From: Cytophagaceae bacterium
Lineage (GTDB): Bacteria; Bacteroidota; Bacteroidia; Cytophagales; UBA9547
Length of the DNA stretch: 64,000 nt
Assembly (NCBI GenBank): GCA_027488865.1
Contig: JAIYAU010000025.1
Location: forward strand, 254,359 to 318,358
Reading direction: 5' to 3'
The stretch's first letter is position 1. Each line of letters opens with the position of its first letter. Below are positions 17,146-20,168 of the stretch, in pieces. The notes under the pieces were generated by a model, which saw only the letters and a list, made by a program, of their open reading frames with translations, was not told where the DNA came from and made no database searches. A program made the position numbers and the translations under genes.

Positions 17146-17307
17146 TCAGCTGTAATTTGGCGAATCCTTGAAAGTATTAAAAACGCTTGCGAATTGATAA
17201 TATTTCAAATTGCGCCAAAAATACACTTAATAAATTAGAATTAATGCATTCTCTAGAAGATTTGTAAAAATTCAACCTTCGATAACAACCTAAATTCATT
17301 AATACTA

Positions 17308-18075
17308 TTATTCCATAGGAACTTCAATGATTAACAAATGAACATTTGTGGAGGCCACAATATTAATTTTATCAGTTGCCCATATACCAATAGCATCTCT
17401 CTTGGTTAGATTTTGGTTATTGATAACCGTTTCACCATCGATTATAAAAACATAAACCCCATTACCTTTAAAACGTAGGTTGTATTCTTTAATTTGACCT
17501 TGTTCTAACTTACCAATTGTGTAAACTGCATTTTGATTGATATGCAGGGTGTTAGGATCACTTGGCGATACTACAGTTTTTAAGGTGTTTTTATAATCTT
17601 CCTGTTTAAAAGTTTTTTGATCATACCTAGGCTCAATATTTTGTTTGGCTGGCAAAATCCAAGTTTGTAGCGTATTGGCCGTCAAGGTTTTAGAAGCATT
17701 ATATTCTGAATGTCTTATACCCGTTCCAGCTGACATAATTTGTATATCTCCCGCATTAATTACTCCATGGTTGCCTTTACTATCTTTATGTTCTAGGGCT
17801 CCTTCTAGCGGAATGGTAACAATTTCCATATTATCATGTGGATGTGTACCAAAACCTTTGCCGCCAGCAATAAAGTCATCATTTAACACCAATAATTTAC
17901 CAAAACCCATCTTTTGAGGATTGTAATAATCAGCAAAGGAGAACGAGAAATTAGCTTTAAGCCAACCATGATCTGAAGAACCTCTTGTATTGGCTTTATG
18001 AATTACAAAATTTTGTTGGGCTACCATTTTTAAAGAAAAGGCAATTGCAATAATTGAATAAAAGATAGTTCTCAT
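17308..18075 (-). CDS. Pirin-family protein with signal peptide
   Basis: A 255-residue cupin of the pirin family. The residues before Q-N-F-V-I-H-K form a signal peptide (hydrophobic MRTIFYSIIAIAF core, cleavage near MVAQQ), so this copy is predicted to be exported, unlike typical pirins. The pirin signature F-G-x-H-P-H-D-N-M-E-I-V carries two metal-binding histidines; the second set is in S-A-G-T-G-I-R-H-S-E. Pirins hold Fe and some have quercetinase activity. Last gene in the MarR-headed operon and a clear paralogue of the 18716-19432 gene, from which it differs mainly by the leader peptide. Confidence 0.9.
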   Translation of the reverse strand: MRTIFYSIIAIAFSLKMVAQQNFVIHKANTRGSSDHGWLKANFSFSFADYYNPQKMGFGKLLVLNDDFIAGGKGFGTHPHDNMEIVTIPLEGALEHKDSKGNHGVINAGDIQIMSAGTGIRHSEYNASKTLTANTLQTWILPAKQNIEPRYDQKTFKQEDYKNTLKTVVSPSDPNTLHINQNAVYTIGKLEQGQIKEYNLRFKGNGVYVFIIDGETVINNQNLTKRDAIGIWATDKINIVASTNVHLLIIEVPME

Positions 18076-18081
18076 GGTATG

Positions 18082-18309
18082 TTAAGACTCGTTTTCAAAA
18101 TATGTCAATGCTTTAGATGGACAACGCGAAACTTGATTTTTTATTATTTCTGTATCTGCGTTTTCTAGACGTATCCAAGGTTTAATTCTTGGATCAAAAA
18201 CCTCTGGCAATCCTCTAAAACAAACGCCAGAATGTGTACATAAACCAGAATTCCAAACTACAGTGATATCCTCATTTTTGTAGTGTTTAACAATATTTTT
18301 AGCATCCAT
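18082..18309 (-). CDS. YjdI-type (4Fe-4S) mono-cluster protein
   Basis: A 75-residue ferredoxin-like protein of the DUF1271/Fer4_19 family. The cluster ligands are visible in G-L-C-T-H-S-G-V-C-F-R-G and S-R-C-P-S-K-A-L. In many genomes this family sits next to OsmC or acetyltransferase genes, as here: it lies 11 bp after osmC and 6 bp before the second pirin. A redox role in stress metabolism is likely but untested. Confidence 0.9.
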   Translation of the reverse strand: MDAKNIVKHYKNEDITVVWNSGLCTHSGVCFRGLPEVFDPRIKPWIRLENADTEIIKNQVSRCPSKALTYFENES

Positions 18310-18320
18310 TTTATCTTTAT

Positions 18321-18707
18321 TTAAATATTTAACTTGGTGTTTATTTCTATATTATTAGTTAAGATCTTGTGTACAGGGCAAGCATTAGCAATTTGCAAAA
18401 GCCTCTCGTGCTGCTCATTAGATAATTTTTCACTAAAACTAATTTTCCTTTCGAAACTAGTGACTGACTCTTTTCTTAGCAAATCCAACTCTACTGAAAT
18501 TTGCCCTACCTCCCATCCCTTGCGCTGTACATACATTTGTAAGGTAATAACTGTACAGCTGCCTAGTGCCGAAAGTAAATACTCGAAAGGATTGGGACCC
18601 AAATCTTTACCACCTTTATCCACAGGCTCATCAGCCAACATCGTATGATTACCTGTATATATAACTACCTTATAATTTGTACCCGAACTTATAACTGTTG
18701 TATTCAT
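18321..18707 (-). CDS. OsmC-family peroxiredoxin-like protein
   Basis: A 128-residue OsmC/Ohr-fold protein with both catalytic cysteines: one in A-L-G-S-C-T-V-I-T and one in N-A-C-P-V-H-K-I-L. Family members reduce organic hydroperoxides with these thiols. The sequence (YLLSALGSCT, ACPVHKIL) is closer to the YhfA/OsmC-like group than to Ohr. Cytoplasmic, third gene of the MarR-pirin operon, 8 bp after the upstream pirin. Confidence 0.93.
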   Translation of the reverse strand: MNTTVISSGTNYKVVIYTGNHTMLADEPVDKGGKDLGPNPFEYLLSALGSCTVITLQMYVQRKGWEVGQISVELDLLRKESVTSFERKISFSEKLSNEQHERLLQIANACPVHKILTNNIEINTKLNI

Positions 18708-18715
18708 GGCTTAAA

Positions 18716-19432
18716 TTAAATGCTAAATTCCATAGGTATTTCTATCAACAGAATTTGTGCTTGGCTTTGTGCTGTTAATTGTAATTGTTCTAACTCCCAC
18801 AAACCTAGCGCATCTCTTTTTGCTAAAGTTTGATTATCAATTACCACCTCGCCATCAATAACAAAAACATAAACGCCATGTTGTTTATTCTGTAAATTAT
18901 AGCTTATAGAATTACCTTTCTCCAAAGTTGTCAAAGCAAAATAAGCATCTTGATTGATCCAAATTGCGTCTTGGTGGGTTGGAGAAACCACAAATTGCCA
19001 GTCATTTATTCTGTTATTGGGCGAAAATGTCTTTTGTTCATATCTTGGAGCAATATTTTTCTCTTTAGGAAAAATCCATATTTGGAAAAACTCTACTGCT
19101 TTATCTTTGTTATGGTTAAATTCTGAATGAGAAATTCCACTACCAGCGGACATAATTTGCACATCGTTTTGACGAATTATTTCATGCCTACCGGTACTGT
19201 CTTTGTGCTCAAGATCTCCAAATGTAGGAATTGAAACAATTTCCATATTGTTATGAGGGTGAGTTCCAAACCCCATTCCAGCTGCCACAGTATCGTCATT
19301 TAATACACGTAATGCGCCAAAATTCATTTTATCCTTATCTTGAAAGGTACCAAAGCTAAAGCTATGAAAACTCTTTAACCAACCGTGATTTACAAACCCT
19401 CTTTCGGTGCTTTTGTGCAATATAGTTTTCAT
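18716..19432 (-). CDS. Pirin-family protein (cytoplasmic)
   Basis: A 238-residue two-domain cupin of the pirin family without a signal peptide. It has G-F-G-T-H-P-H-N-N-M-E-I-V and S-A-G-S-G-I-S-H-S-E, with the His/His/His/Glu metal site of the N-terminal cupin, and the R-D-A-L-G-L-W motif shared by bacterial pirins (R-D-A-I-G-I-W in the neighbouring paralogue). Transcribed from the marR side; a 12-bp palindrome also found upstream of marR lies 23-34 bp before its ATG. Pirins are often induced by oxidative or electrophilic stress. Confidence 0.94.
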   Translation of the reverse strand: MKTILHKSTERGFVNHGWLKSFHSFSFGTFQDKDKMNFGALRVLNDDTVAAGMGFGTHPHNNMEIVSIPTFGDLEHKDSTGRHEIIRQNDVQIMSAGSGISHSEFNHNKDKAVEFFQIWIFPKEKNIAPRYEQKTFSPNNRINDWQFVVSPTHQDAIWINQDAYFALTTLEKGNSISYNLQNKQHGVYVFVIDGEVVIDNQTLAKRDALGLWELEQLQLTAQSQAQILLIEIPMEFSI

Positions 19433-19454
19433 AAAAGTACGTTTAATATTATAG

Positions 19455-19466
19455 TTGTATATACAA
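19455..19466. promoter_or_regulatory. Putative MarR operator upstream of the pirin gene
   Basis: TTGTATATACAA is a perfect 12-bp palindrome in the marR-pirin intergenic space. The same core occurs upstream of marR (19944-19955). Two copies flanking a MarR-family gene suggest autoregulation plus control of the pirin-osmC genes. Confidence 0.6.
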
Positions 19467-19485
19467 TTAAATTAAATAAAAAGTT

Positions 19486-19932
19486 TCATTCATTTCGTAA
19501 TTTATCTAACAATACACTTAACAGCTCTGCCTCAATATCACTAAGTCTATTTATCTCTTTGTTTATTGCAACATCATCAATTTTGTTTAATAATTTGAGC
19601 CCTTCGCTGGATATTGCTAACTGCACCTCTCTCCTATCTTCTTCTGATTGCTTCTTTTCAACTAGATTTTTAACTACAAGTTTATCAATAATTCGCGTTA
19701 CGTTTGAACCCCTGTCAATCATTCGCAAAGCAATATCTTTGGCGCACAGTAAATTAGGCAAAGAACCTTTTAAAATCCTAAGTACGTTAAACTGCTCTTC
19801 GGTTAGTTGAAACTGCTTTAAATACCTGTTGATGCGAGTATGAATCCAACTTGCTGTAAAAAGGACATTAACGGAAGCCTCTTGTTGTTTGCTTGCGAAA
19901 TGATTTACTCCTAATTCTTGTGCAATTTTCAT
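19486..19932 (-). CDS. MarR-family transcriptional regulator
   Basis: A 148-residue winged-helix regulator with the MarR DNA-binding core: helix L-T-E-E-Q-F-N-V-L-R-I-L-K, recognition region LCAKDIALRMIDRGSNVTRIIDKLV, and the wing with E-E-D-R-R-E-V-Q-L-A-I-S. The D-R-R wing motif is diagnostic. A single cysteine lies in the helix-turn-helix region (LLCAKD), not at the N-terminal redox position of OhrR, so the signal is not predictable. Heads the operon with two pirins, OsmC and YjdI; likely represses it through the paired palindromes. Confidence 0.93.
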   Translation of the reverse strand: MKIAQELGVNHFASKQQEASVNVLFTASWIHTRINRYLKQFQLTEEQFNVLRILKGSLPNLLCAKDIALRMIDRGSNVTRIIDKLVVKNLVEKKQSEEDRREVQLAISSEGLKLLNKIDDVAINKEINRLSDIEAELLSVLLDKLRNE

Positions 19933-19936
19933 TGCA

Positions 19937-19971
19937 CAAATATATGTATATACAATTATAATAAAAACAAA
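19937..19971 (-). promoter_or_regulatory. Candidate marR promoter overlapped by its operator
   Basis: On the minus strand, TATATTTG (complement of 19937-19944) fits TAnnTTTG and TTTG (complement of 19968-19971) lies 23 nt upstream. The ATG is only four bases past the -7 element. The palindrome at 19944-19955 sits between the two promoter elements, ideally placed for steric repression. Confidence 0.5.
19944..19955. promoter_or_regulatory. Putative MarR operator upstream of marR
   Basis: ATGTATATACAA contains the perfect 10-bp palindrome TGTATATACA shared with the site at 19455-19466; ten bases of shared core plus flanking AA. It lies between the -33 and -7 elements of the marR promoter candidate. 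Confidence 0.6.
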
Positions 19972-20168
19972 AATGCTCTAGTTTAATGTGATTTTAAAAT
20001 TTACATTTCTTTATTTGCACTAAAAAAATTGACTGAAATTTTAGTAGATTTTATTGCAAAAATATTCGAGTATGTAAAATGGCTAATACACTTAAACTTA
20101 ATTTAAGATTTTGAACAAAACCTTAAAAAATTAAACGAGTATAAATATTTACTTAAAATTATTAATTA

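Follow-up and report, generated by a model that had tools for sequence, protein, structure and literature searches.

A predicted autorepressing MarR operon of pirin, OsmC and Fer4_19 genes in a Cytophagaceae bacterium

The described system that is nearest in logic to the operon presented here is MhqR of Bacillus subtilis and Staphylococcus aureus (mhqRED)—likewise an autoregulated MarR repressor heading a small detoxification operon—and its gene content, with a glyoxalase-fold dioxygenase and flavin reductases, is comparable to that of other loci of our MarR family (PMC6798810, PMC12893000). The MhqR operator is TATCTCGAA-ATCGAAATA (9-9 bp; PMC6798810, PMC12893000), and quinone sensing by MhqR requires His111 in helix 5 (PMC12893000); the word "pirin" is absent from the text of PMC6798810. 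Within the Bacteroidota, the pirins Pir1 and Pir2 of Bacteroides fragilis are induced by oxygen and iron limitation (PMC11304471); in the passages of that paper that we consulted, neither a link to a MarR operator nor an OsmC/Fe-S operon is described. Full-text searches of open-licence papers found no published description of a MarR–pirin operon or of a WTGTANNTACAW operator, a negative that is weak evidence. The OhrR–Ohr peroxide switch also joins a MarR-family repressor to a linked OsmC/Ohr-superfamily gene, and a cysteine is present there as it is here. The reactive cysteine of OhrR lies in the N-terminal helix 1.

The locus studied here lies in a 64-kb window (the whole stretch of DNA that was analysed) and is apparently an autoregulated MarR detoxification operon of a familiar kind, in a Bacteroidota subfamily that appears to be undescribed. 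Its anatomy is directly visible: five tightly packed genes, all on the minus strand, which are marR (19486–19932), pirin A (18716–19432), osmC (18321–18707), a YjdI-type Fer4_19 gene (18082–18309) and pirin B (17308–18075), the set and coordinates that the initial annotation had given. The intergenic gaps, in order from marR to pirin B, are 53, 8, 11 and 6 bp; the gaps of 8, 11 and 6 bp make it very probable that pirin A through pirin B form a single transcript, while marR may be either co-transcribed with this module or transcribed separately. An AHSA1-domain gene comes next, 162 bp after pirin B, and a gene for a GH5 cellulase is divergent from marR.

Two 12-mers, also located correctly by the initial annotation, are predicted operators, neither assigned to a strand: TTGTATATACAA (19455–19466) in the gap between marR and pirin A, and ATGTATATACAA (19944–19955) in the marR promoter. 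The palindromic core that they were said to share is indeed common to both; ATGTATATACAA is a perfect palindrome over 10 bp, with its outermost pair mismatched. No other inverted repeat was found within 17146–20168 under the settings used, and no further exact WTGTATATACAW match occurs in the window; allowing 2 mismatches gives 27 matches in the window where 28 would be expected, which makes the loose motif uninformative. The marR promoter (19933–19971, minus strand) is predicted to be of the Bacteroidota type, TTTG-N23-TATATTTG, by consensus match only; a sigma-70 promoter scan was set aside as ill-suited to Bacteroidota promoters. As had been noted, ATGTATATACAA falls between the promoter elements—it is flanked by TTTG and TAnnTTTG, 23 nt apart—and it overlaps the -7 element by one base, that element's first, on which the site ends. 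For a separate pirin promoter we could discern no clear -7 element.

We infer that, in all likelihood, a MarR dimer binds both palindromes and represses marR and the pirin–osmC–Fer4_19–pirin module until an inducer releases it. MarR would occupy both the TTGTATATACAA-type palindrome of the marR promoter, beside the -7 element, and the further copy that immediately precedes pirin A; the inducer, for which a quinone or another electrophile is the likeliest candidate, would be sensed by the ligand pocket, by Cys63 or by both, and by freeing MarR from the DNA would start a detoxification response confined to a single locus. That MarR controls itself and a stress module, as the initial annotation proposed, is strongly supported by operator conservation and promoter position, and weakly by the co-variation of residue 79 described below; as a prediction from sequence, an autorepressing MarR operon is strongly supported.

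The conservation of both operators can be observed directly among relatives. The MarR homologues come from two sources, 98 same-order genomes and a scan of GTDB species genomes, and removal of near-identical upstream regions left 102 homologous Bacteroidota marR loci; many of the records are metagenome bins, and the loci, being mutually related and picked by similarity to the window MarR, form a set biased toward the query. An exact WTGTANNTACAW lies within 120 bp upstream of marR in 58 of the 102 (57%), compared with 27/707 (3.8%) for the upstream regions of the loci's other genes and 22/335 (6.6%) for A+T-matched ones, and control palindromes of the same shape reach 8% at most. Of the 64 exact operators that precede marR, 50 are overlapped by a TAnnTTTG or have one no more than 15 nt downstream. 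The second operator recurs as well: the gene that follows marR could be identified at 79 loci and is a pirin at 35 of them, and the exact core NTGTANNTACAN is found in 25 of these 35 marR–pirin spacers as against 4 of 245 other same-strand spacers in the same loci (with one mismatch, 30/35 and 17/245), typically 22–26 bp past the marR stop. In L086 and L110, where a few kb separate the pirin gene from marR, the pirin is preceded by a site of its own, as is probably also true of L052, whose site lies about 150 bp from the pirin. Taken together, site conservation, spacing and promoter overlap fit a repressor that regulates itself and uses a second operator to regulate its target genes. Operator, repressor family and target set are recognisable in the sequences of many Bacteroidota, which offers a concrete route toward the role of bacterial pirins.

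The genes that accompany marR bear on the inducer. After or near marR in relatives we found pirins (of both C-terminal types), YceI, an OYE-type flavin oxidoreductase, FMN reductase, nitroreductase, a glyoxalase-fold dioxygenase, DoxX, OsmC and Fer4_19; the order in L104 is marR–pirin–pirin–yceI–osmC–pirin–FMN reductase, and L045 has the window's order, marR–pirin–osmC–Fer4_19, with the pirin split over two frames. With family roles taken from general knowledge, this mix suggests quinone, electrophile and nitro/flavin chemistry rather than peroxides alone. An electrophile or peroxide response, as first proposed, is plausible; the linked YceI, OYE, FMN reductase, nitroreductase and glyoxalase-fold dioxygenase favour its quinone/electrophile half over peroxide as the presumed inducer.

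The 148-residue window MarR scores 39.5 bits against the Pfam MarR domain (cut-off 24.6) and is modelled as a helical winged-helix protein with a pLDDT of 90.7. Its best PDB sequence match is 3u2r, a MarR-family regulatory protein (5e-23 with a profile), which lacks the conserved Cys63 in the alignment and is tied here to no operator or ligand. Among the NCBIfam MarR equivalogs, HpaR included, none was accepted, the best being HpaR itself at 40.4 against a cut-off of 121.2. Identity with MhqR was likewise rejected, TTGTATATACAA and ATGTATATACAA being unlike the TATCTCGAA type and no histidine lying beyond residue 31 (the only ones are at 11 and 31, and helix 5 spans about 109–121 in the model); the two differ in operator and pocket. 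F12, N22, T26, W29, Q47 and N49 are nearly invariant in homologues, and some of them could line a ligand pocket.

Cys63 is the sole cysteine of the window MarR and stands immediately before helix 3 in the model. Of the 102 homologues, 71 keep it; among the 34 whose locus includes a nearby pirin the number is 30, an association that may reflect common descent. This conserved cysteine, together with an osmC within the operon, speaks for a reading in which MarR controls both sites and senses organic hydroperoxides or hypochlorite through an OhrR-like thiol switch at Cys63, with no quinone pocket. We regard this as possible but rather unlikely: Cys63 is not at the helix-1 position of OhrR, where the window MarR has no cysteine, and the residue is absent in 31 homologues (30%), of which 21 still have the operator. 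The OsmC protein has both conserved cysteines of OsmC/Ohr peroxidases (Cys51 and Cys110), but the NCBIfam score for the Ohr type is 21.9 bits against a cut-off of 88.85, so that an Ohr-type OsmC was not accepted; an identification of the window MarR as OhrR was rejected on the position of its cysteine. Peroxiredoxin NCBIfam models also score below cut-off on OsmC, and the "thiol peroxidase" of the initial annotation is a putative one, based only on the Pfam OsmC family and the two cysteines.

Quinone or electrophile sensing also has to be weighed against the sensing of aromatics or flavonoids, as nutrients or toxins, with the pirins acting as quercetinase-type dioxygenases that would degrade them. 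Pirin A is of the YhhW/quercetinase type by its predicted domains (Pfam Pirin and Pirin_C_2) and metal ligands, His58, His60, His102 and Glu104 being in place in the alignment; its best likeness is to YhhW (PDB 1tq5, 3e-54), an entry deposited as quercetin 2,3-dioxygenase, and a glyoxalase-fold dioxygenase follows one homologous marR. We nonetheless judge this reading unlikely, as the linked genes examined include none for aromatic uptake or downstream catabolism, and OsmC and Fer4_19 fit poorly in a catabolic pathway. Pirin B (Pfam Pirin and Pirin_C_2) has an N-terminal hydrophobic leader, with a hydropathy peak of 2.34 at residue 4, and is probably exported. A marR-linked pirin in a same-family relative (L012:1996-2865) carries a Tat-like leader, which makes exported pirins a recurring companion of this MarR regulator.

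The Fer4_19 protein (Pfam Fer4_19, 84.6 bits) had been called a ferredoxin; the family membership holds, but with three cysteines (C24, C30 and C63) in place of four ligands the name is merely a family label. A histidine lies nearby in the protein, and a Fer4_19 homologue in L086 (8838-9263) is fused to a CDGSH (mitoNEET-type) domain. Three cysteines plus histidine, and this fusion, suggest that the window protein may hold an unusual cluster.

Residue 79 of MarR, second in the recognition helix that the structure model predicts at 78–87, is the best predictor of the operator's outer base among all 148 residues. Of 34 cases with Thr79, 31 have TTG..CAA, and of 41 with Pro79, 38 have RTG..CAY. 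Thr79 is the residue of the window MarR, and among the four half-sites of its two operators three are TTG and one is ATG. When the columns around residue 79 are left out of the tree, about four changes of the residue are counted, with only two well supported independent pairs, in which operator and residue are never opposed—too few for significance, so that the dependence of the outer base on residue 79 is suggestive. It yields a testable hypothesis of specificity set by one residue. More tentatively, and with more doubt than confidence, we propose that the window MarR belongs to an undescribed, phylum-wide family of Bacteroidota electrophile-response repressors that captures varied detoxification genes under WTGTANNTACAW, with Thr79/Pro79 as a TTG/RTG switch and Cys63 as a sensor in the pirin-linked branch.

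It is very improbable that the palindromes are bound by a different regulator and lie near marR incidentally: the site accompanies marR across the Bacteroidota whichever gene comes next, and its outer base follows a residue of the MarR recognition helix, even if some same-family marR–pirin loci have no site. The same-family relatives L011, L012, L024 and L030 show no clear operator before marR, L011 and L012 being marR–pirin loci all the same. In L011, L024 and L030 the MarRs have Pro79 and adjoin a pirin or DoxX.

Coincidence in AT-rich DNA is hardly credible as the origin of the palindromes, since they are conserved at homologous positions far more often than in the matched controls, although the motif shows no genome-wide excess. 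In the 4.33-Mb source genome, WTGTANNTACAW occurs at 40 sites, a majority within ORFs, as against 39 in a reversed control, and we found no convincing additional target among them; a wider regulon in this genome was therefore set aside, and the motif is credible only in context. Exact WTGTATATACAW occurs four times, the same number as in the reversed control, and two of the four are 489 bp apart in both gaps flanking one marR gene, where about 0.0014 such pairs would be expected by chance from four random sites in 4.33 Mb. The third genome site, of the TTGTATATACAA type (L151), is distant from every gene start. The fourth, TTGTATATACAT (L004:1501-1512; G000:C44:126970), lies directly against the start codon of a gene for a small HTH protein; it is probably a chance match, or alternatively a further target.

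The source genome also has a MarR paralogue (L149:2165-3348; gene at G000:C33:15667-16113) that is 40% identical, has Arg in place of Cys63 and is encoded directly downstream of yceI, with the operator absent from its upstream 200 bp. A search for WTGTAYATACAW in six genomes gave no excess in three Sediminibacterium genomes; in two large genomes of the same order (9 Mb; G013 and G061) the sites exceed the control, which hints at a wider regulon there, and several of them lie around marR.
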